A stretch of 64,000 nucleotides of DNA. Origin: Akkermansiaceae bacterium (GTDB lineage: Bacteria; Verrucomicrobiota; Verrucomicrobiia; Verrucomicrobiales; Akkermansiaceae). The translations under genes and the position numbers were made by a program. Below the pieces are notes generated by a model. That model had not been told where the DNA came from, did not search any database, and was given only the letters and a program-made list of their open reading frames with translations. The stretch covers positions 1 to 64,000 of the forward strand of contig JAPKCM010000013.1 of the NCBI GenBank assembly GCA_028822935.1, read 5' to 3'. Shown here one piece after another: positions 2,658 through 29,996 of this stretch (positions are counted from its first letter, which is position 1; every line of letters starts with the position of its first letter).

Positions 2658-3521
2658 ATGAACCTTCGTATTCACGCGCAACGCGCCACCCATCTTCTCA
2701 GTAGCTCGCTCGCCGTGGTGGCGCAGCGACTTCCCTTCATTAAGAATTTCGCTCCGCTACTTTCCTCGCCAAGCAGTCTTCGGCTTGCGATGCCCTTGAC
2801 GGTCACCTTTGCAGGGACCGACACCCTCACGGGGCAGACCACGATTGTCGCTCCGCTCAACGGCTTTGATAACCCCACGGAAACCACTGTCGGCGAAGAG
2901 TTTCTCTGGGCCTTCAATACCCAAGGAAATCACAGTGCCAGATCTTTCGACGTCCAAGGACTCCCTCCAGGCGTCAACTATTCCTTCGGGCTTCCAAGCA
3001 CACCCAGTCAAGGAGGAGTTCTCTCGGGTTCCGTTTCCGAGCCCGGTCCCTTCGAGGTCACAATCGTGGGCTATCGCGACCCTAACTTCGGAAGGCAAAA
3101 GACTCCCACCTACACTCTCATTATCAACGCCACCCAGGACGAGACCCCCTTCGAAGCTTTCCAAAAAACTTTCTGGATGGGCGATGACCTCGCCAATGAA
3201 GCCATCTCAGGTCCCAATGCCGACCCGGACGGCGACGACATCCCGAATCTCCTTGAGTTCACCCTCGGATTCGACCCCACCACAAAGGAAACCATCCCCG
3301 GCACCTTCGGTGTCGATCCCGATGACGAGACCGACCTCCTCTGGGAGGTTCCTTACTTAGGCACCGGTAACATGACCTTTCAAGAAAGCACCTCGCTGGA
3401 TGGCGATCACTGGACCGACGTCGCCGAGGGCCAAATCGAAATCCTCCCAAATTCGATCCAACTGCGCGCCACCAAGGAGGACGCCTCGAAGAAGTTCTTC
3501 CGCTTGAAGGCAACCCTATAG
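2658..3521 (+). CDS. Secreted protein with Ig-like region and thrombospondin type 3-like repeat
   Basis: The 287-residue product has a basic N-terminus and an amphipathic/hydrophobic stretch to about residue 47. A region with the look of a putative Ig fold follows (residues 50-150: GLPPGVNYSFGLPST, GGVLSGSVSEPGPFEVTIVG). An acidic calcium-binding repeat (DPDGDDIPNLLEFTLGFDP) sits near residues 190-208. The C-terminal 70 residues resemble the tail often found after such repeats in PVC secreted proteins. It lies 14 bp after the DUF4266 gene and may be part of that operon, perhaps displayed at the surface. Its stop codon forms the loop of a perfect hairpin (3509-3531). No enzymatic function is evident. 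Confidence 0.65.
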   Translation: MNLRIHAQRATHLLSSSLAVVAQRLPFIKNFAPLLSSPSSLRLAMPLTVTFAGTDTLTGQTTIVAPLNGFDNPTETTVGEEFLWAFNTQGNHSARSFDVQGLPPGVNYSFGLPSTPSQGGVLSGSVSEPGPFEVTIVGYRDPNFGRQKTPTYTLIINATQDETPFEAFQKTFWMGDDLANEAISGPNADPDGDDIPNLLEFTLGFDPTTKETIPGTFGVDPDDETDLLWEVPYLGTGNMTFQESTSLDGDHWTDVAEGQIEILPNSIQLRATKEDASKKFFRLKATL

Positions 3522-17402: not shown

Positions 17403-18614
17403 CTACTTCTTCAAGCTCACACAAACCAACTTCCCGCCGTTCGAGCGGGCAAAAAGTCGACCGTCCGAAAACGCCGGCGGCGACCAGCAAAGCTTCGGCA
17501 AAATTTTGTGGCGACCCGTGATGGAAAACTGATTGCCGCTCTCTTTTCCAAAGATGAGCTCCCCTGTTTCGGAGAGAATGATGAGCTTGTCGCCCGACAT
17601 CAAAGCCGAGCCGCGGGATCCTGAAATGGGCGTCACCCACTTCAGCTTTCCCGTTTTCATCTCCATGCGATAGACTTCCGCCTTCATTCCCTTGTCTCCG
17701 AAGACCCCAATAATATCGCCCTCCTTCGGCAGCGCATTTTGAAAAATCATGCGCCGCTCGCGATCGCGGTGCAGCTCCTTGGGCTCGTCTCCTGATAGAT
17801 CAAGCACGATGTTGCCCATGCCATAGCCCGAGGAGAGGTGGAGCATGTTGTTTTGAAAGACTGGATTAGAGGCATTGACGTCGTAGGGCGTTCTCCAGGT
17901 GTAATCAAAAAGAACGACACCCTTCGCCGCGAGATCATAAGCCACAAGCTTGCGACCATGAAAAATGAAGGCCGTTTTCTTCCCGCGATAGTCCGCGATC
18001 ACCGGTGCGGAATAACCGGCCTTGGCCGCATCCTCCGACTGCCAGCGCAGCTCTCCTGATTTCTTATCGAGAGCGACGAGCGCACCACTTTTGGGACAAG
18101 GAAGACAAAGCAATAGATCTTCGAAAATCGTGGGCGAGGCCGAGTAACCCCACATCGGGGCCTTCCCCTTAAAGTCCTTTTTGAAACTCTTCGTCCACGC
18201 GATCTTTCCCGACTTCAAATCGTAACACGCCAAGCGACCGCTTTTGGACAAACCGTAAACCCGACCTTCATGGATCAAGGGCGTGGCACCCGGACCCCCG
18301 GTGTAAAACTTCGGGTCCAATTTTTCCTCGTAAGTGTCCTTCCACTCCACCTCCCCCGTAGCTGCATCGAAGCACCAAACGGTATCCTTGTTGTCCGAGT
18401 TTCCCACCGTCACTGCGAGACCACCCGCCACTGAGATCGACGAACAGCCTTTCCCAATGTCAGCCGTCCATAGCGTCTTGGGCGCTTCATCGTTCCAATC
18501 GATGTGCAGTTCTTCCGCAACTGACCCATTTCCCTGGGGACCCAAAAAACCGGGCCAATCCCCGGCATAAGAAATGACAGGAAGAGCGAGCAAAAAGGTC
18601 AAAAGCACTTTCAT
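17403..18614 (-). CDS. Secreted PQQ-like beta-propeller protein
   Basis: A 403-residue protein with a signal peptide (residues 1-17, ending SYAG) and the PVC-typical mature start DWPGFLGPQGNGSV. Repeated propeller blades show A-x-D-x-x-x-G-x-x-x-W motifs, such as CFDAATGEVEWK, CYDLKSGKIAWTKSF and ALDKKSGELRWQ. It is periplasmic and may bind a ligand; the catalytic residues of true quinoprotein dehydrogenases are not evident, so an enzymatic role is unproven. It faces away from the lipoprotein and sulfatase genes to its right. A paralogue lies at 54841-56097. Confidence 0.85.
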   Translation of the reverse strand: MKVLLTFLLALPVISYAGDWPGFLGPQGNGSVAEELHIDWNDEAPKTLWTADIGKGCSSISVAGGLAVTVGNSDNKDTVWCFDAATGEVEWKDTYEEKLDPKFYTGGPGATPLIHEGRVYGLSKSGRLACYDLKSGKIAWTKSFKKDFKGKAPMWGYSASPTIFEDLLLCLPCPKSGALVALDKKSGELRWQSEDAAKAGYSAPVIADYRGKKTAFIFHGRKLVAYDLAAKGVVLFDYTWRTPYDVNASNPVFQNNMLHLSSGYGMGNIVLDLSGDEPKELHRDRERRMIFQNALPKEGDIIGVFGDKGMKAEVYRMEMKTGKLKWVTPISGSRGSALMSGDKLIILSETGELIFGKESGNQFSITGRHKILPKLCWSPPAFSDGRLFARSNGGKLVCVSLKK

Positions 18615-18798: not shown

Positions 18799-18981
18799 AT
18801 GCTTCGCTGCGCCCTGATCACGATCGTCTGTGCTTTAATCTCCTCTTGCTCCCTCATCACCACTCCGGTGAAGATCGTCGGAAAAGCCACCACCACCACC
18901 ATCGGCCTCACCGGAAAAGCCGCAGGCGCTGGAATCAGCGCTCTCACCCCCGGCGGCGATTGCGAAGTCGCGGAAGAATAG
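18799..18981 (+). CDS. Small lipoprotein
   Basis: A 60-residue protein with a lipoprotein signal peptide and lipobox (LISSCS, lipidated Cys17). A Thr/Gly/Ala-rich mature part (VKIVGKATTTTIGLTGKAAGAGI) and an acidic end follow. TTGCTT (18765-18770) and TAAGAT (18787-18792), 16 bp apart, could form a promoter very close to the start. It lies 29 bp before a sulfatase gene and may be co-transcribed. A similar small lipoprotein is at 32368-32556. Function unknown. Confidence 0.65.
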   Translation: MLRCALITIVCALISSCSLITTPVKIVGKATTTTIGLTGKAAGAGISALTPGGDCEVAEE

Positions 18982-19010
18982 CCCAAATAGAATCGTATCA
19001 AGGCACAATC

Positions 19011-20459
19011 ATGCGCTTCCTGATTCTCTTCTGCCTTGCCCTCACCGCTTCGCTTACCGCGAAGAAGCCCAATTTCCTCTTTATCATCGTCGATGACCAA
19101 TCGCCGTTTGACCTCAAGGTCTACGATCCCAAGTCGGCTTTGGAAACACCCAACATCGACCAACTCGCGCACGATGGACTCGTCTTCGATGGCTCCTACC
19201 ACATGGGCTCCTGGATGGGCGCGGTCTGCACCTGTTCTCGTCACATGATCATGACCGGGCGCAGCGTCTGGCACCTCCCTTCTAACAACCCCAAGAAGAA
19301 AACGGGACCCAACGGAAACAACCCCGCACTCGTCCCGCTAAATCTTGAAAAAAACTCGCTCGCCGCCGTCTTCAACCGCGCGGGATACGACACCATGCGC
19401 ACTTGCAAGCGCGGCAACTCGTTCTCCGGCGCGAATAACCAATTCCAAGTCGTCAAGGACGCCACCAAACGCGGCGGCACCGATGAAACCGGCTCTCATT
19501 GGCACGGCCAACAAGTCCTCGACTACCTCGACAGCCGCGAGTCCACCAAAGACAAAGATCCCTTCCTCATCTACTTCGGCTTCTCCCACCCGCACGACGA
19601 GCGCAACGGAAAGCCCGAACTCCTCGACAAATATGGCGCCAAAAATCACCGCGATAAAAAATTCCTCCCCACTCTTAATCCCAAGCAGCCTGAGCTTCCC
19701 ATCAACTACCTTCCAAAACACCCCTTCTCCCACGGCCACCCCAACCTCCGTGATGAAGTGAGCGTCCCTGGCGTTTGGAAGAATCGCGATGAAGCCACCA
19801 TCCGCAATGAAATCGGCCGCGAATTCGCTTGCTCCGAAAATATCGACATCCAAATCGGACGCGTCCTCAAGAAAATCGAAACAATGGGCGAAATCGATAA
19901 CACCTACATCATTTACACCTCCGACCACGGCATGGCCATCGGCCGCCACGGACTCCAGGGAAAACAGAACCTCTACGAGCACACCTGGCGCGTCCCTTAC
20001 ATCGTCAAAGGCCCTGGCGTGAAAAAAGGCCGCGTGCAAGGAAACATCTACCTCCTCGATACCCTCGCTACCCTCTGCGACCTCGCCGACATCAAGCCCC
20101 CGAGTACCAACGAGGGAACCAGCTTCAAACCCGTCCTCACCGGCGATAAGAAAACGATCCGCGACACCCTCTTCGGCGTCTACGCCGGAGGCACCAAACC
20201 CGGCATGCGTTCTGTGAAAAAAGGCGACTGGAAACTCGTCAAATTCGACGTCCTCGATGGCCAAGTACGAGAAACGCAATTGTTCAACCTCAAGGAAAAC
20301 CCCAACGAATTCCTCCCCGAGCACCGTAAAAATAATCCCAAGCTCACCAACCTCGCCACCTTAAAAGAGCATGCCGCCAAACTAAAGGAAATGGAAGCCC
20401 TCCTCAAATTCGAGATGGAGCGCCTCAACGATCCCTATCCTCTCTGGAATCAGAAGTAA
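19011..20459 (+). CDS. Secreted sulfatase (family S1) with atypical C-x-C-S-R active-site motif
   Basis: A 482-residue protein with a signal peptide (residues 1-17) and the alkaline-phosphatase/sulfatase fold: PNFLFIIVDDQSP (metal-binding Asp pair), TPNIDQLAHDG, and YTSDHGMAIGRHGL near residue 302. The formylglycine site reads C73-T-C-S-R77, with Cys where the usual Pro or Ala stands, followed by the canonical M-T-G-R. The start at 19011 fits the signal peptide; the frame is open 165 bp further upstream but that stretch is an Arg/His-rich shadow of the lipoprotein gene. The sulfated substrate, probably a polysaccharide, is unknown. Confidence 0.88.
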   Translation: MRFLILFCLALTASLTAKKPNFLFIIVDDQSPFDLKVYDPKSALETPNIDQLAHDGLVFDGSYHMGSWMGAVCTCSRHMIMTGRSVWHLPSNNPKKKTGPNGNNPALVPLNLEKNSLAAVFNRAGYDTMRTCKRGNSFSGANNQFQVVKDATKRGGTDETGSHWHGQQVLDYLDSRESTKDKDPFLIYFGFSHPHDERNGKPELLDKYGAKNHRDKKFLPTLNPKQPELPINYLPKHPFSHGHPNLRDEVSVPGVWKNRDEATIRNEIGREFACSENIDIQIGRVLKKIETMGEIDNTYIIYTSDHGMAIGRHGLQGKQNLYEHTWRVPYIVKGPGVKKGRVQGNIYLLDTLATLCDLADIKPPSTNEGTSFKPVLTGDKKTIRDTLFGVYAGGTKPGMRSVKKGDWKLVKFDVLDGQVRETQLFNLKENPNEFLPEHRKNNPKLTNLATLKEHAAKLKEMEALLKFEMERLNDPYPLWNQK

Positions 20460-20659
20460 GCTGCCTCCAACTCCCCCATGCCCAGTAAGGGAAAAAGCGC
20501 GATGGGTCCCGGCATGATCGGAACCGTGGCCGTCCTCGCCAGCCTGACTACTCCAGTGGTTATGAAGGCAAAAACAAATGCCAACAAGAATAAGAAGATT
20601 AACAAGATGAAGTTATCTTTTTCCAAGCGGATAGATCGATCCAGACCATGACCAGCCAT
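20450..20659 (-). CDS. Small membrane protein, unknown
   Basis: A 69-residue frame with a strongly hydrophobic central helix (about residues 17-40, FILLIFLFLLAFVFAFI) and a second Pro-rich hydrophobic stretch near the end. It overlaps the 3' end of the convergent sulfatase by 10 bp and follows the DUF2007 gene on the same strand with a 45-bp gap. This context makes it plausible as its partner. No family recognised. Confidence 0.4.
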   Translation of the reverse strand: MAGHGLDRSIRLEKDNFILLIFLFLLAFVFAFITTGVVRLARTATVPIMPGPIALFPLLGMGELEAAYF

Positions 20660-20704
20660 CTCTTTAGAAAATTACGTATCGGTGATCAGAAGAAATATGG
20701 ACTT

Positions 20705-20938
20705 TTAGGATTCGTCCTCGCTCACATCCGCGTCCTTCAATTCTTGAAGAATCTGAAGGGCGCGCTCGCTGTCACCTTCCGGCACCTGAAGGCGGATTCC
20801 CTGCTTCGCCATACTGATAAAAGGATCGACCGTCGCGCTGACCTCATCTGGAATAAAGGCTTCGATCCCGCGGGCCCCCAAGTTCATTTTCATCGTTTGA
20901 GCAAGGTCCAAACTCATCACACGAGCAATCGTTTTCAT
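20705..20938 (-). CDS. DUF2007 domain protein
   Basis: A 77-residue soluble protein with the compact beta-alpha-beta pattern of DUF2007: MKTIARVMSLDLAQTMKMNL, then GIEAFIPDE, and IRLQVPEGDSERALQIL near the end. DUF2007 resembles PII-like ferredoxin folds and is sometimes called a putative signal-transducing protein; the ligand is unknown. I preferred the Met at 20938 over the one two codons upstream because homologues begin at the M-K/R-T strand. Confidence 0.75.
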   Translation of the reverse strand: MKTIARVMSLDLAQTMKMNLGARGIEAFIPDEVSATVDPFISMAKQGIRLQVPEGDSERALQILQELKDADVSEDES

Positions 20939-21084
20939 TGGCACAAGCTAGCACCTTAAGGCCCTAAAAAAAAGCCCGCTTCTTACGAAGCAAAATTTTG
21001 AAAAATCGAAATAAATTAACAGACCTATCCTTCGGACTCTTTAGAATTCCAATCTTCTGTCAGTTCTGCACAATGGCGGAACTC

Positions 21085-22935
21085 ATGATCAAACTTTTAC
21101 TCGTTCTCCTTTTCCCAACTCTCGCCCTCGCAGCAGACCGGCCCAACATTCTCTGGATCGTAAGCGAGGATAATTCGTCCCACTGGCTGGGCTGCTACGG
21201 AAATGACGACGCTCAAACGCCGAACCTCGATGCCCTGGCCGCCCGCAGTACGCGCTTCACCGCCGCCTACTCGAACGCGCCTGTCTGCGCCGTCGCCCGA
21301 GCCACCATCCTCATGGGTATCTACTCTCCGGCCATGGGGACACAGCACATGCGCAGTCGCCATGCCATTCCTGACAAGCTGACTCCTTACGTCACCCATC
21401 TCCGGAAGGCTGGCTACTATACGAGCAACGCTTCCAAGACTGACTATAATTTTGCCGGAAACGACAAAGCCCTCTGGGACGAATCCTCACGTAAAGCCCA
21501 CTACTCCAATCGCCCCGAAGGAAAACCCTTCTTCTCCATCTTCAATCTCACTGTCTCCCACGAGAGCAATCTCTTTCCCTCAAAAATCGCTGGCAATCGC
21601 AAGAGGGGCCTCATTCCCGAGACCCCACGCCTCGATCCCGCCAAGCTCACACTTCCGCCTTACCTCCCCGACCTCCCTGAGATGCGCCACGACTTCGCGG
21701 TCTACCACGACACCATGACCGCGCTCGACACGCAAATTGGCGGCATCCTCGCCAAACTTGAGAAGGACGGCCTCGCCGATGACACCATCATTTTCTACTA
21801 CGGCGACCACGGTGGCCCCACTCCTCGCGGCAAGCGCTACCTCCACGACACCGGCGTTCGCATCCCGATGGTCATCCACGTCCCTGAAAAGTGGCAAAAG
21901 CTCAGCCCCTTTAAAAACGGAACCGTCAGCGATGAAATCGTCTCCTTCGTTGATCTCGCACCCACCACCCTCTCACTCGCCGGGCTCAAGGACGACCCAC
22001 AAATGCAAGGTCGCCCCTTCATGGGACCCAATCGCGAAGAACCCGGTGAGGAGCCCTACGCCTTCCTCTTTGCCGATCGCTTCGATGAGATCTACGGCCT
22101 CCGCCGTGGTATCACCACCGGCCGTTACAAGTACGTCCGCCATTTCACCCCGCACACCTGGGCCGCACCCTACTCCTTCTACCAATTCCAAATGGCCTCC
22201 TGGCCTGCTTGGCACGAAGCTTGGAAAAAAGGAACGGTCACCGGTGTCCACGCCTCGCTTTGGGAAAACAACCAGCCCAGCGAAGAGCTCTTCGATACCC
22301 AAACTGACCCCTGGGAAATCAAGAACCTCGCTGCTGATTCCACCCACGAAGAGCTTCTCACGTCGATGCGTGGCAAACTCCTCAAGCACATGCTCGAGAT
22401 CCGCGACACCGGTCTCATCCCTGAACCTCTCTTCGATACCGTCCGGGGCGACAAAACCATCATGGAAACCGTCGCCGACGCTTCCGAGTCCAAATGCCGG
22501 GATCTCCTCACTATTGCCTTCCTGGCCTCCTCCGGCGATTCTGCTGGCCAAGCAGCTCTGGAAGCAGCCACTAAGCACAAAAGCCCCCTCGCGCGTTTCT
22601 GGGCTTACAGTGGGCTCGTTACCCTTGGCAAGAAAGCATCCTCCAGTGAAAAGATGATCGTCGCCGGCCTCAGCGATCCTGTTCCCCTCATTCGCGCCCA
22701 AGCGGCCATCGCCCTCCATAACATCGGTCACAAGCAATCCGCGGTCCAAGCGCTCATCAAGGAGCTCGATGCGAACCTTTCCGTTACCAACGAAGCGATG
22801 ATCATCAACACCCTCATGCAAATCCGTGAAACCAAAGCGATTCCTAAGAGTTGGTTTAATAAATGGTTAAATGGAAAGTCAGGAGAACTTCGCTTAGGCA
22901 CTCTCGCTAAGAGTGTTTCGATGTTCCACAAATAG
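21085..22935 (+). CDS. Secreted sulfatase (family S1) with HEAT-like C-terminal region; C-x-V-A-R motif
   Basis: A 616-residue protein. The signal peptide covers about residues 1-17 (ending LALAAD), which sets the start at 21085; two upstream Mets (20998 and 21073) would add a polar extension. The catalytic domain shows NILWIVSEDNSSHWLGCYG, TPNLDALAARS, FYYGDHGGPTPRGK and PTTLSLAGL. The formylglycine site reads C68-A-V-A-R72, with Val at the usually Pro/Ala position, so maturation is uncertain. Residues about 470-600 are alpha-helical with HEAT-like repeats (ASSSEKMIVAGLSDPVPLIRA), a tail I have seen described on PVC sulfatases. Substrate unknown. Confidence 0.88.
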   Translation: MIKLLLVLLFPTLALAADRPNILWIVSEDNSSHWLGCYGNDDAQTPNLDALAARSTRFTAAYSNAPVCAVARATILMGIYSPAMGTQHMRSRHAIPDKLTPYVTHLRKAGYYTSNASKTDYNFAGNDKALWDESSRKAHYSNRPEGKPFFSIFNLTVSHESNLFPSKIAGNRKRGLIPETPRLDPAKLTLPPYLPDLPEMRHDFAVYHDTMTALDTQIGGILAKLEKDGLADDTIIFYYGDHGGPTPRGKRYLHDTGVRIPMVIHVPEKWQKLSPFKNGTVSDEIVSFVDLAPTTLSLAGLKDDPQMQGRPFMGPNREEPGEEPYAFLFADRFDEIYGLRRGITTGRYKYVRHFTPHTWAAPYSFYQFQMASWPAWHEAWKKGTVTGVHASLWENNQPSEELFDTQTDPWEIKNLAADSTHEELLTSMRGKLLKHMLEIRDTGLIPEPLFDTVRGDKTIMETVADASESKCRDLLTIAFLASSGDSAGQAALEAATKHKSPLARFWAYSGLVTLGKKASSSEKMIVAGLSDPVPLIRAQAAIALHNIGHKQSAVQALIKELDANLSVTNEAMIINTLMQIRETKAIPKSWFNKWLNGKSGELRLGTLAKSVSMFHK

Positions 22936-23252
22936 ACTGCGTTCATGAAAACGAAGTCATTTGTCCCCATCCCCTAGAGAGTGTGAACGGGTAATTTTTA
23001 CTATCTTCTTCTTCTTATAGGGAAGAATAACTCGCCCAAATCACTGTTCCACTTAGCACCACTTATGTTCCACCAGACCAATAACCCGTGAAGAGCACTG
23101 CGAAGAACGACCAGAAATCAGCATAAGAATGGGAATGGCCCAAGTTAATCAGAATTACTCCCTAAATATTCACACACTTACCAAGAGAAGATTTTAAGAA
23201 AACGAACCCTTCCTAAGTTCTTGTTTCCCAAATTGTTCCACTCGACTCGTTT
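22936..23252. other. Gene-free gap with three TGTTCCAC octamers
   Basis: No convincing coding frame or riboswitch is visible. The octamer TGTTCCAC, which is half of a parS-like palindrome, occurs three times in the same orientation at 23045-23052, 23066-23073 and 23234-23241. A DnaA-box-like ATATTCACA lies near 23166. The flavin riboswitch signature often found before rib genes is absent. Confidence 0.4.
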
Positions 23253-24302
23253 ATGCCCATCCAACCCAGCGACACCCCCTGGATGAACCTTGCCCTTGCT
23301 GAGGCAAAACAAGGCAGCGGACTTACCTCCCCCAACCCCGCAGTCGGATGCGTCATCGTCAAGGACGACATCGAACTCGCCCGGGGCTGGCACCATAAAT
23401 ACGGCACCCACCATGCGGAGCGCGCCGCTCTCACCAAACTCGAACCTGGCCAAGCCAAGGGCGCCACCGCCTACGTTACCCTGGAACCCTGCAGCAGTCA
23501 TGGTACCACCGGGGCCTGCACCGAAGCACTCATCGAATCCGGAATCACCCGTGTCGTCTACGCCATCAGCGACCCCAACCCTTCCCACGCCGGAAATGCC
23601 GACCGCATCCTCTCCGCAGCGGGCATCGATGTCTCCTCCGGCCTCCTCGAAGAAGAAGCCCGCCACCTCATCCGCGGTTTCGCCATGGTCCAAACTGAAA
23701 AACGCCCCTGGGTCATCGCCAAAACCGCGATGTCCCTTGATGGCCGTATCACCCGCCCACCTAGCGAAAGCCAATGGCTTACCGGCCCCGAAGCCCGCGA
23801 AGACGTTCAACTTCTTCGCGTCGAGGTCGACGCCATCATCACCTCCGGCGCCACCGTTCGCCAAGATGACCCCGCCCTCACCCTCCGCAGCCCCGCCATT
23901 TCTTCCCGGAAAAAACAACCCCTCCGCGTCGTCCTCACTCGCTCCGAGATCGACCAATCGACCTATCAAATTTTCAACGACGGTCATCCCACCCGTCTTT
24001 TCCAAAATATCCCTATCTCAGAAGTTCTTCGTACTTTGGCCAGCGATGGCATCAACACCATCCTCTTAGAATCCGGCGGTGACCTCATGGGTTCCTTTCT
24101 CGATGAAGGCCTCATCGATGAATTCGTGATCTACTACGCTCCCATAGTTACTGGTGGCCCCACTCCCGCGATCGGTGGAAAAGGAGTAGCGACCCTCGAA
24201 GAACGCCATTCTCTCAAAAATACCAGTCTCGAAAAAATTGGCCCCGACTTACGTATGCGTGGGATCATTGATCGTAACGGGCCGCCTCCGCTGGTTCGAT
24301 AG
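23253..24302 (+). CDS. ribD: Bifunctional riboflavin biosynthesis deaminase/reductase RibD
   Basis: A 349-residue two-domain enzyme. The N-terminal zinc deaminase (about residues 1-145) has NPAVGCVIVKDD, THHAERAAL (His-Ala-Glu) and LEPCSSHGTTGAC (the two zinc cysteines). The C-terminal reductase domain (about 150-349) has RPWVIAKTAMSLDGRIT, SQWLTGPEAREDVQ and LLESGGDLMGSFL. It deaminates and then reduces the GTP-derived pyrimidine on the way to riboflavin in the cytosol. No other rib gene is adjacent and no FMN riboswitch was seen upstream. Length is normal. Confidence 0.95.
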   Translation: MPIQPSDTPWMNLALAEAKQGSGLTSPNPAVGCVIVKDDIELARGWHHKYGTHHAERAALTKLEPGQAKGATAYVTLEPCSSHGTTGACTEALIESGITRVVYAISDPNPSHAGNADRILSAAGIDVSSGLLEEEARHLIRGFAMVQTEKRPWVIAKTAMSLDGRITRPPSESQWLTGPEAREDVQLLRVEVDAIITSGATVRQDDPALTLRSPAISSRKKQPLRVVLTRSEIDQSTYQIFNDGHPTRLFQNIPISEVLRTLASDGINTILLESGGDLMGSFLDEGLIDEFVIYYAPIVTGGPTPAIGGKGVATLEERHSLKNTSLEKIGPDLRMRGIIDRNGPPPLVR

Positions 24303-24397: not shown

Positions 24398-25050
24398 CTA
24401 GTAGGTGATTCCTTGCGCTTCAAGAAATGTCTCAGCGTTCTTTCCCTTGAGCGTCGCTAAGGTAGAAAGTAGTACCGCCTGAAGGCACTGTGGCATTCCC
24501 ACGCTGGTGGAAAGCGGGGCGCGGTTCACGGGCCAGCCTGTTCTCGGGTTGAGGATGTGCGAGATCTTTTTGCCCTTATGCATGATATAGCGGTTGGCAT
24601 TTCCACTGGTGGCGATCGCTCCCTTTTCGAAACGAAAGGAGGCTCGGGTATTCGTGGCGGTGGCCTGTTTGATACCGACAGCCCAGCTCTCACGGGAGAG
24701 CGGTTTGCAGGTGGCCGCAAGGTCCCCTCCGAAGTTTACAAGGATCGGGCAGCTAAAGGATTCTGCCACGAGTTGAAGCGCAGTATCGACGGCATATTCT
24801 TTGCCAAACCTACCGAAGTTGACCTGCATTCCATTGAGAACTTGCAGGATCTTGAAAAATTTATTCCTTCTATCGTGGCGATCAATCTAGGGCACAAGTG
24901 GGAAACCATGCCGGTATCGGACTGAGTTTTTCTCGTGAGATTGTCGTACTTTTGGGAGGGGCGATCAGGGTGTCGCAAGTGTCGGCCAACCGAATTGCGT
25001 TTGAGGTGAGTTTGCCCAGGTGAGCGCGCTCGTTGATCTGTGATTCTCAA
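24398..25050 (-). pseudogene. Decayed ApbE (FAD:protein FMN transferase) gene
   Basis: The largest intact piece, 143 residues from the ATG at 24829, carries the C-terminal half of ApbE: GMQVNFGRFGKEYAVDTAL, ILVNFGGDLAATC, GAIATSGNANRYIMHKG and HILNPRTGWPVN. Homology continues upstream of that ATG in the same frame for 20 codons (DRHDRRNKFFKILQVLNGM) until an in-frame TAG at 24887-24889. Further upstream, weaker similarity (DRPSQ, then SDTGM) lies in another frame. About half the gene, including the N-terminus, is thus missing or shifted. The downstream part is well conserved, so decay looks recent. An intact paralogue lies at 1494-2441. Confidence 0.7.
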
Positions 25051-26521: not shown

Positions 26522-26644
26522 AGTTCTTTAGGTTTTGGTTTCCCGGTGCTGATCAATGCGACGGGGCCTATCCCAATTTCATTCAAAGAAAAGTTTCCGT
26601 TTGGTGTCGTGTTAGGAGTGAGAGACCGTTCCAAAAGTGGACTC

Positions 26645-26705: not shown

Positions 26706-27044
26706 ATGAACGAAGATAAGCAAAATCAAGAGACGGAAACAGCCAAGCGGCAGTTTGAAAATATGGGAGAAGCATTCCGTTCGGGAAGTGAAGCCGGAGC
26801 TCAAAAGGCCCGTGAAGCTGCCCCGACGGTAAAATCTGCTTTCGCAGATGCGGTTCATGACCTCGCCTTCGGCTTGGCCTACGGAAGCAACTTTGTGGGT
26901 GCCTTTGCAGAGGAGTTTGTTCCTCAGAGTGTCCGTGATGGATTTGCGAAGGGAGCCGCGGCCGGCCGTGCTGCGAGCCACAAAGCTCGTGAGAAGGCTG
27001 CTGATGTGATTACTCCCGAAAAGAGTGGTTCCGAGCTTGCCTGA
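26706..27044 (+). CDS. Small Ala-rich protein, unknown
   Basis: A 112-residue soluble protein. It has an acidic, Gln-rich start (residues 1-20), an Ala/Gly-rich amphipathic middle (SGSEAGAQKAREAAPTVKSA, then DLAFGLAYGSNFVGAF at about 56-71 as a weak hydrophobic helix), and a second helical Ala-rich tail. It has no signal peptide. The pattern resembles small PVC-restricted helical proteins. Codon composition (G-ending, unlike the genes to the left) agrees with mnmG to the right. An operator-like palindrome lies directly upstream. Function unknown. Confidence 0.65.
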   Translation: MNEDKQNQETETAKRQFENMGEAFRSGSEAGAQKAREAAPTVKSAFADAVHDLAFGLAYGSNFVGAFAEEFVPQSVRDGFAKGAAAGRAASHKAREKAADVITPEKSGSELA

Positions 27045-28133
27045 TAAGATGATGAGAAGCTCTTAATCTTTCTGAACGAACGAGCCCCCTACCGACGTCT
27101 TAAATTTGTAACAAATGTTTATTGTTGCGTGTGTGCTCAGCAGCGGTTCTTCCTTCGGGATGGGCCGCTGTTGTTTTTTTGGGTTTCGTTTGAAGAGAAT
27201 CTAGGACGAGATAAATCGTCCTAAATGGGAGGCGATCAATTTTTGCGTCCTCGAGTGAGTCGATTGCCCTGCTTGGCGAAGCTGTTGTTTTTTGAGTAGC
27301 GCGGGCAACAGGACAGGACAGTTTAATCGAGGCGATTCTCAAGCACTTTAAGTGGCCCCTTTTTCGTCCTAAGCCCCCTATATATAGTGGTTTGGGGAGT
27401 TTGAGAAAAAAACGATTTTTGGGCTCTTTTTGGAATATTTGCTCGAATTTGCACTTTTTTGGCTAAAATTGTTCTTTTTCGTCATATGGCGTTTTTAAAG
27501 AGCGGCCATTTTTACCTTTTTTAGGTAGATTGATTCTATTTCTGCTCAGCTGGCAGGAAGGGGACCCTTGAAGTGAATCTTTTTCTCCTTTTTGATGTTC
27601 TGCCCGAATCATTCCTTCGTTTGTCGGACCTGCTATTTTTCTCTTGATCGGAGTTTTCATCGGATGGGGTTCTTTCTGAGATGCGCTTCCAAGGGATCAG
27701 ATTCCGGTGATAGAGAAACAGCGAAATGGTTGAGAGTCTTTGATCGATCTAATGCGTCAGTTTCGTCTGAGTTCGATTGCAAAGATCATTCGACTGAAGG
27801 GAGATCAAAAAATTCTTCGGCTGGAGCAAGAATATCTGGATCTTTGGATCATCTTGAGATCTTGAAAAAGCGGACTTCTCCCCTGCCCTCTAGTGGGCTC
27901 TTATTTTGGGGGCGTTGCGGAAGCCGGGTTATCTTCAGAACGAACTTCTTTGTTTAAACTGAAATGTGTCTGCTTCACACCTCCCGCTCGTTCAGGAGGC
28001 CATTGAATAATGAGAGTTCGAATGAGAAAGATCGACTTGCGTTGAGTCAGATCGAGATCGGTCTGTTGGGCGATTCCAAGTAGCGAGCGCCTCTTGTCTT
28101 TTCAGCTTTTCTTGCTAGGGTTCCGCCCTTTCC
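27045..28133. other. Candidate chromosomal replication origin region (gene-free, 1.1 kb)
   Basis: No convincing gene is seen in this gap. It holds an AT-rich tract (about 27380-27560, with many runs of T and A) followed by an unusual density of GATC: twelve sites between 27646 and 28059, nine of them within 216 bp, where fewer than two are expected by chance. It lies directly upstream of mnmG, a common neighbour of oriC, and mnmG carries two parS-like palindromes. The + strand changes from C-rich to G-rich just to the left. Canonical DnaA boxes (TTATNCACA) were not found, which weakens the call. Confidence 0.5.
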
Positions 28134-29996
28134 ATGTATCGCTATCCTAAAGAATATGATGTCCTTGTGATTGGCGCGGGACACGCTGGTGTTGAGGCGG
28201 CTCTCGCTGCTGCTCGTCTCGGTGCCCAGGTCGCTGTGCTGACCCAGAATCTTGATACGATCGGGCAGATGAGCTGCAACCCTGCCATTGGTGGCTTGGC
28301 CAAGGGACACATGGTTCGCGAAATCGATGCGCTCGGTGGAATCATGGCGGAAAACACCGATGCGACCGCAATTCAGTGGCGTATGTTGAATGCGGCCAAG
28401 GGGCCCTCGGTCCGTGCTCCCCGGGCCCAGTGCGATAAGAAAGCTTACCAGTTTCGCATGAAGCGGATCCTCGAAGGAACCCCAGGCTTGGATCTCCATC
28501 AAGGGAATGTCGCCGAGATTCTAGTAGAGAACGACGAGGTTCGTGGGATTCAAACCTCCCTCCAGATGGAGATTGCGGCAAAGTCGGTTATCCTTTCAGC
28601 GGGTACCTTCATGCGTGGTTTGATGCATGTTGGAAAGAAGAACGAAAAAGGGGGCCGCATGGGCGATGCCTCCTCTACGGTTTCGGAATCGCTCAAGGAG
28701 CTTGGTTTTGATGTCGACCGTTTCAAGACTGGGACCCCTTGTCGTCTCAACGGACGGAGTATTGATTTCTCCAAATGCGAGCGCCAAGATGGCGACTCCC
28801 CTCCCCCCCTATTCTCATATTTTCCTGAGTTGATTCGGAGGGAAAGGAATGACCTTTTTACTCTCAATCACTGGGCTGAGAATTCGTTCCACGTGGAACA
28901 AGTTCCTTGCTGGATGACTTTCACGAATCCCAAAACTCACGATGTCATCCGCGATAACATCCACCAGTCCCCCATGTATTCGGGTCAGATTGAGGGCGTG
29001 GGTCCCCGCTATTGTCCTTCTATTGAGGACAAGGTGGTTCGTTTTGCAGAAAAGGAACGGCATCAGGTTTTCCTGGAGCCAGAGGGTCGACACACCTTGG
29101 AATACTACGTCAATGGAGTTTCGACCTCTCTGCCCTACGATGTGCAGCTTGATTTCTTACGTAGTATCGAGGGTCTAGAAAACTGTGAAATGATCCGCCC
29201 TGGCTACGCGGTAGAATACGACTACTGCCCCCCTACGCAGCTTCATCCGACTCTGGAGACCAAGAGAGTCTCGGGGCTTTATTTTGCAGGGCAGATTAAT
29301 GGCACCTCAGGATACGAGGAAGCGTCTGGTCAGGGACTCATTGCAGGAGCGAATGCGGCTCTTAAGGTGGCTGGTAAAGGTGACTTTGTTTTGGGTCGGG
29401 AACAAGCTTACCTTGGTGTGATGGTCGATGATCTTGTCACAAAGGGCTGCACCGAGCCCTATCGAATGTTCACGAGCCGGGCCGAATATCGCCTCCTTTT
29501 ACGTCAGGATAATGCGGATGAGCGCCTCTCCCCTCTCGCTTCGGATCTTGGTCTCCTTCAGGGAGAGCGGAGAGAGATGGCTGCCAAGAAGCTTGAAGGT
29601 CTTGTGGAAGGGCGATCTTTCATTCGCGGGGCGAGTCACGAAGGCATCAAATTGGACCATTGGTTCCGGCGTGGTGGGAATTCCTGGGTGATGCTTCCTG
29701 ATGAAATTAAAGAGAAGTTCCACGTGGAACTTTGGCCGATTCTCGAGTCAGATTTCAAATACGAGGGCCACATCGAGCGTCAACGCATGGAGGTGGAACG
29801 AGTCAAAAAACAGGAGTCCGCCCTCATCCCTTTCGATCTCGACTTCCATACTATCAAGGGACTCAAGACAGAGGCCAAGCAGCGCTTTACCTCGATCCGT
29901 CCACGGACGCTTGGGCAGGCAGGCCGTATTAGTGGCATTACTCCGGCGGACATTACCCTTCTGGTGATTTACCTTCGGAAGCTTGAGAAGTCCTAG
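28134..29996 (+). CDS. mnmG: tRNA uridine-5-carboxymethylaminomethyl synthase, large subunit MnmG (GidA)
   Basis: MnmG with MnmE modifies the wobble uridine of several tRNAs using FAD and methylene-tetrahydrofolate. The 620-residue product has the FAD-binding start [21 protein letters not shown], then [57 protein letters not shown], and the C-terminal MnmE-binding block [19 protein letters not shown]. Length is normal. The gene contains two 14-bp parS-like palindromes at 28886 and 29717. Its TAG stop shares the palindrome CTAG with the stop of convergent trmL. Confidence 0.98.
28885..28900. promoter_or_regulatory. parS-like centromere site 1 (inside mnmG)
   Basis: The sequence C-GTTCCACGTGGAAC-A contains the perfect 14-bp palindrome GTTCCACGTGGAAC (28886-28899). 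It matches the widely conserved ParB-binding consensus TGTTNCACGTGNAACA at every inner position; only the outermost left base differs. It encodes SFHVEQ within MnmG. Confidence 0.8.
29716..29731. promoter_or_regulatory. parS-like centromere site 2 (inside mnmG)
   Basis: A second copy of GTTCCACGTGGAAC (29717-29730), flanked by A and T. It lies 831 bp from the first and again matches the inner 14 bases of the ParB site. Two exact copies of a 14-bp palindrome within one gene are not expected by chance. Confidence 0.8.

Follow-up and report, generated by a model that had tools for sequence, protein, structure and literature searches.

The window, that is, the whole stretch of DNA analysed here, comes from a Verrucomicrobiales assembly of 4.59 Mb and 156 contigs, in which it makes up the leftmost 64 kb of contig C101 (73.9 kb). 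The part of interest (Table 1) extends from a PQQ-repeat gene (17403-18614) through two sulfatase genes (18846-22935) to ribD, which is preceded by a short intergenic element, and on to mnmG (gidA). Where both genes could be seen in a congener, about 600 bp at most separates the PQQ gene from ribD; here the two sulfatase genes stand between the PQQ gene and the element. Positions 24398-25050 match the C-terminal half of the ApbE family only, and the upstream part of that gene may be in another frame, pointing to a possible frameshift or a remnant. An ORF of 112 aa (26706-27044), with relatives in 7 of the 40 loci that we fetched from relatives as mnmG with its flanks, is separated from mnmG by a gene-free gap of 1.09 kb (27045-28133), which the sequence-only reading had put forward as a candidate chromosomal origin. 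None of the three chance ORFs within the gap has a Pfam match, and the window holds no Rfam match at the gathering score, so that we rejected a coding or known-RNA role for the gap.

Table 1. Features of the ribD-mnmG neighbourhood, with positions in the window.
Feature	Position	Strand	Basis
Proposed oriC core, between sulfatase gene (20998-22935) and ribD	22976-23192	+	16-sequence alignment, invariant boxes; leave-one-out profile
Left boundary box GTGAAC; GTGAATAG in most relatives, the reverse of CTATTCAC	22983-22988	-	alignment
AT-rich block AATTTTTACTAT, proposed unwinding element	22993-23004		alignment; role inferred
(TTC)n trinucleotide tract TCTTCTTCTTCTTA, where DnaA-trios sit in other origins	23004-23017	+	nearly invariant, 16/16 sequences
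DnaA-box-like GAATAAC (TTATTC on minus strand), first box beside tract	23025-23031	-	alignment
DnaA-box-like TGTTCCAC; GTTCCAC invariant 16/16	23045-23052	+	alignment
Second DnaA-box-like TGTTCCAC; GTTCCAC invariant 16/16	23066-23073	+	alignment
Reverse DnaA-box-like AATAAC	23080-23085	-	alignment
ribD-proximal box ATATTCACA; most relatives TTATTCACA or TTGTTCACA	23166-23174	+	box scan, alignment
ribD, neighbour of proposed oriC	23253-24302	+	RibD_C, E=9.8e-44
Cumulative GC-skew minimum of contig C101	24252		cumulative skew
Structured small-RNA-like element: 5' hairpin, unpaired GUGUGUGCUC, terminator-like hairpin, T-run	27099-27185	+	conservation, fold
Species-specific spacer, AT-rich tract and GATC cluster	27200-28110		no orthologous match in 26 congeners except weak 44 bp in G007
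mnmG (gidA)	28134-29996	+	GIDA, E=3.7e-163
parS-like palindrome inside mnmG	28886-28899		GTTCCACGTGGAAC match
Second parS-like palindrome inside mnmG	29717-29730		GTTCCACGTGGAAC match

The features for which the gap had been singled out are all present. Its GC content is 0.448, and its lowest 150-bp window (0.327, at 27391) has the second-lowest GC of the 64 kb, the lowest being at 26576 (0.32). Thirteen GATC sites occur in the gap, nine of them within 216 bp (27646-27861), which is the highest GATC density of the whole window. When the gap segment was shuffled with its dinucleotides preserved, 13 sites in total were reached by 0.45% of the shuffles, while nine sites per 216 bp were reached by none of 2000. 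The gap contains no TTATNCACA-like DnaA box at one mismatch, as had been remarked, and the classical neighbour mnmG does follow it.

The parS-like sites that had been reported together with mnmG are two in number and lie within the gene itself. Exact GTTYCACGTGRAAC palindromes occur nowhere else in the 4.59-Mb assembly. Among the 40 relatives' loci, 39 carry a parS site in mnmG or at most 220 bp from it (inside the gene in 37), the only locus with no such site at mnmG being L075. In most relatives of the order, the first of the sites is found at nucleotide 752 of mnmG or a few bases off. These predicted parS sites would provide the palindromic TGTTTCACGTGAAACA-like sequence expected near an origin.

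The GC skew of the contig is -0.263 over positions 1-22979 and +0.051 from mnmG rightwards. We also sampled stretches of the skew in four relatives assembled as a single contig (G040, G058, G136 and G155). G040 (3.50 Mb) belongs to another family of the same order, and G058 (3.18 Mb) to genus g3, which we take to be Akkermansia-like. In G040, 21 sampled stretches of 20 kb were negative as far as 0.479 Mb and positive between 0.524 and 2.1 Mb; values were close to zero at 2.27 Mb, negative thereafter and close to zero again at 2.97 Mb, with a second flip at 2.27-2.45 Mb. The three parS cores of this genome lie at 0.484-0.489 Mb, and mnmG at 0.487 Mb. In G058, the sole parS site is inside mnmG at 1.2398 Mb, and the skew, negative before mnmG and positive from 1.25 to 2.8 Mb, flips at about 1.24 Mb, with a local minimum at 1,238,408. 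Since the skew of the contig flips at 24.25 kb, the only exact parS cores of the genome lie in mnmG and the flips of these relatives fall at mnmG and parS, this neighbourhood is the replication origin region, and the earlier proposal holds as far as the region is concerned.

In other bacteria, parS may lie some distance from oriC, and the locus could accordingly be a segregation centre and nothing more, with replication starting at dnaA. We consider this extremely improbable. The dnaA gene stands at the start of the record in both G040 and G058 (at 0.4 kb in the latter), 0.49 and 1.24 Mb away from the flip locus, and the sampled skew flips at mnmG and parS, not at dnaA. In our own assembly, dnaA is found on a different contig, and the skew around it does not change sign over 40 kb. 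Passages of a study in which parS and skew, backed by coverage, served to locate the origin in 12 gut species, A. muciniphila among them, likewise report that origin positions do not systematically coincide with dnaA (PMC10197239).

Within the origin region, skew alone cannot decide where initiation occurs, because the minimum is 1.1 kb from the element in front of ribD and only 2.8 kb from the gap. An origin inside the gap, with an unusual initiation sequence, would be in keeping with this proximity, with the AT-rich tract and the significant GATC cluster and with the position next to mnmG, which is where oriC is found in E. coli. However, a search of 27200-28120 against the 26 other congeners (27 genus genomes including our own) found no counterpart at the same place except for a weak 44-bp similarity (27446-27488, E=0.003) in the nearest relative, G007, and two further matches of 28-31 bp were located elsewhere in the genomes. 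Nor is GATC enriched upstream of mnmG in the 40 relatives, where 1-19 sites per 1.2 kb were counted and about 7.5 are expected. The cluster is species-specific, and conserved GATC clustering of the Dam/SeqA type is absent at this origin; we thus rejected the cluster as an origin signal, real as it is in its own genome. In G058, mnmG is directly preceded by the end of an ORF and has no upstream gap, yet the origin is still nearby. Finally, a profile of the element in front of ribD, described below, has no match within the gap. Because the gap is not conserved in the manner of an origin, its GATC sites are not shared, it has no DnaA boxes and G058 lacks it altogether, it is probably not the oriC site, and we give an origin hidden within it very little credence.

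What is conserved in the gap is a structured element at its left end. Six of its 22 base pairs have changed on both sides with pairing kept, and its fold is stronger than that of shuffled sequences (z of -3.9 in the window and -6.5 in locus L041). In 23 of the 27 genus genomes, it shares a contig with mnmG and lies upstream of that gene; of the four with no strong match, three lack mnmG and one is cut short. G007 has two copies and G024 three strong matches, and a weak match in G037 was put down to chance similarity to a terminator. Against Rfam, 27099-27185 gave sub-threshold matches only. We favour, with some reserve, a small regulatory RNA, which is the likeliest reading of this element and would imply that it is transcribed. 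A leader of mnmG was discarded as the main reading, given that the distance to mnmG varies from 117 to 2464 bp, that an inserted reverse-strand gene intervenes in genomes resembling L038 (as judged by eye) and that in L054, from another genus, related copies are downstream of mnmG. The units in L054 (2675-2915 and about 2990-3070) are two or three tandem look-alike hairpins with GUGUGUG or a related motif, convergent with mnmG. Nor is there support for the element as an origin core, in view of its terminator-like form and of the DnaA-like boxes found elsewhere.

Those boxes are in front of ribD. Strict TTATCCACA DnaA-box clusters are almost absent near mnmG in any genome, but relaxed box patterns led in the genus to a site in the intergenic space upstream of ribD. 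The conserved element lies 3.9 kb to the left of the gap; the sequence-only reading had itself left room for an initiation site elsewhere nearby. An alignment of 16 sequences over 217 bp shows an AT-rich block, a (TTC)n tract, two GTTCCAC boxes, reversed AATAA or ACAA sites and, before ribD, a site of the TATTCACA/TTATTCACA/TTGTTCACA type. Compared with TTATCCACA, the boxes deviate at up to 3-4 bases, the last alone being close to it (TATTCACA/TTATTCACA type). The AT-rich block is conserved and adjoins the tract, and its sequence is that expected of an unwinding element. A profile built with the window sequence left out and searched against 126 loci (2.33 Mb) gave 14 matches. One is window positions 22979-23179 (92.1 bits, E=4.7e-26), the remainder fall in other genera, on stretches that carry mnmG or on neighbouring ones, and none is near dnaA. 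In its own genome, the element is the single match to the origin profile (79.5 bits).

Exactly one match was found in 22 of the 27 genus genomes, including all 13 of high quality, as expected of a locus present once per chromosome. In two of the remaining genomes (G005 and G019) the contig ends less than 2.5 kb upstream of mnmG, and in two others (G013 and G014) mnmG was not found. The fifth is the closest relative, G007, which has no match anywhere in its genome and no core in the approximately 470 bp assembled upstream of ribD; at this locus (L047) a repeat-containing sequence takes the place of the core in those 470 bp. Across the order, 57 of 189 genomes have a match (E<=0.01 plus a stricter filter), while the 132 with none at the strict filter include the listed Akkermansia-like g3 genomes. 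In Akkermansia-like genomes the profile gives weak matches or none, the one in G058 reaching 13.8 bits (E=0.042). G040 and G043 have two matches each; in G040, two origin-like cores are about 500 bp apart (C1:497151-497759, or L056:18230-18838). A parS match accompanies the element in 54 of the 57 genomes, compared with 5 of 57 for a reversed-pattern control. Among the 29 genomes listed, element and parS share a contig in 28, with a median distance of 5.9 kb, and are at most 12.1 kb apart in 25; they are farther apart in G121 (17 kb), G179 (24 kb) and G124 (43 kb), and on different contigs in G184.

Relaxed DnaA boxes scanned around mnmG form clusters that coincide with local skew minima in three other genera, in G034 (+12.8 kb against +12.0), G058 (+3.4-3.5 kb against about +3.0) and G040 (-8.9/-8.4 kb against -8.4). 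For two genomes the position was predicted from the profile before the skew was sampled. In G136, the local minimum (403,451) is 3 kb from the model position (406,505), and the sign is the opposite one in the samples at 0.3 and 3.8 Mb. In G155, most samples are negative to the left of 2.42 Mb and positive to its right, with exceptions at 1.2 Mb (positive) and 5.2 Mb (negative), and the minimum of a finely sampled 80-kb stretch is 21 kb from the model position. The skew thus changes sign at or near the locus in our own contig and in G040, G058, G136 and G155. There are exceptions: G032 has positive skew to the left and to the right through almost the whole of 60 kb, and in G042 and G049 both flanks of mnmG are negative, as they mostly are in G046. 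Local minima away from the element were seen in G003 (-18.5 kb) and G021 (-9.3 kb), both upstream of mnmG.

An element placed directly upstream of a gene in the genus, with an unusual box sequence and tract polarity, might instead be a regulatory region of ribD or of a neighbour, the true origin being another sequence within about 10 kb. The element has ribD as its neighbour in the genus and also in G034, G058 and two Roseibacillus MAGs. However, ribD was sought and not found in seven loci of other genera (L053, L073, L052, L111, L104, L074 and L056), in which the core is still near mnmG. Because the core occurs there with no ribD, its general role is not the regulation of ribD, and the coincidence of box clusters with the skew minima of G034, G058 and G040 also speaks against this reading. 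We therefore regard the regulatory explanation as unlikely, and retain the element as the proposed oriC. Taken as a whole, it is highly probable that oriC is at 22976-23192, that the parS palindromes in mnmG are the ParB sites and that the gap is not the initiation site.

The origin could open as follows. DnaA would bind the cluster of variant boxes (GTTCCAC, the TTATTC type and the terminal TATTCACA), and its filament would extend over the adjoining (TTC)n tract, whereupon the AT-rich block beside the tract would be opened. ParB would then act on the parS palindromes in mnmG, 5.8 kb to the right, so that the new origins are segregated. The gap would take no part in initiation, holding the conserved RNA-like element followed by a spacer peculiar to the species.

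The orientation of the tract is peculiar. In the window, following the TTATTC-bearing strand leads into a purine-rich (AAG)n tract beside the box, and in the congeners that have the box TTATTC(C/G/T)CA at no more than two mismatches, the TTC tract runs opposite to this nearest box. In B. subtilis, the boxes read TTATCCACA on the CTA strand. The tract of the genus sequences does not conform to the DnaA-trio rule for the basal unwinding system (BUS) as given in the passages cited, namely a DnaA box 0-16 bp from at least three NAN trios in the polarity of the box (PMC8287927). In H. pylori, reversal of the trio polarity is reported to inhibit unwinding (PMC8235120, in part). It is conceivable, if rather doubtful, that Verrucomicrobiales origins use a tract of reversed polarity, with (GAA)n on the box strand instead of (CTA/CTT)n. 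If so, the initiator would engage a pyrimidine 3'-TCT-5' tract or the opposite strand, which is outside the published trio rule.

In the limited literature searched, we found no paper joining "DnaA-trio" with "Verrucomicrobia", and none of the matches listed brought ribD and Verrucomicrobia together in one paper, the wider literature being outside that search. The proposed element offers a concrete, testable oriC sequence for the Verrucomicrobiales, the order of Akkermansia. The analysis also shows dnaA to be unsuitable as an origin marker in this order, which bears on growth-rate estimates from metagenome coverage.

The arrangement can be compared with several known systems. As in E. coli, the origin is in the mnmG neighbourhood and not at dnaA, but here it adjoins ribD, about 3-13 kb from mnmG and on either side according to the genus, GATC richness is not conserved, and parS is inside mnmG. 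The parS sites resemble the ParABS centromere (parS, TGTTTCACGTGAAACA) in being GTTCCACGTGGAAC palindromes, clustered at the origin and near-unique per genome, and differ from it in lying within the mnmG coding sequence (37 of 40 loci). In A. muciniphila YL44, the origin was likewise placed by parS and GC skew, with coverage there, and the origins of that study do not systematically coincide with dnaA; the passages cited from that study name no origin sequence element (PMC10197239), whereas here 22976-23192 is proposed. A further likeness is to the incC-type BUS of B. subtilis, which, in the passages cited (PMC8287927, PMC10201434), also combines a cluster of DnaA-box-like sites, a trinucleotide tract by the first box and an AT-rich block after the tract, near parS. 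However, the boxes of the present element are GTTCCAC/TTATTC variants and are not next to dnaA. Moreover, the complement of the trio strand has the sequence 5'-CTACTATTACTTCTACTA-3' in B. subtilis (PMC10201434, in part), while the tract on the box strand here is TAAGAAGAAGAAGA, that is, of opposite polarity, and the element would thus be a natural case of a trinucleotide tract running against the polarity of the trios.
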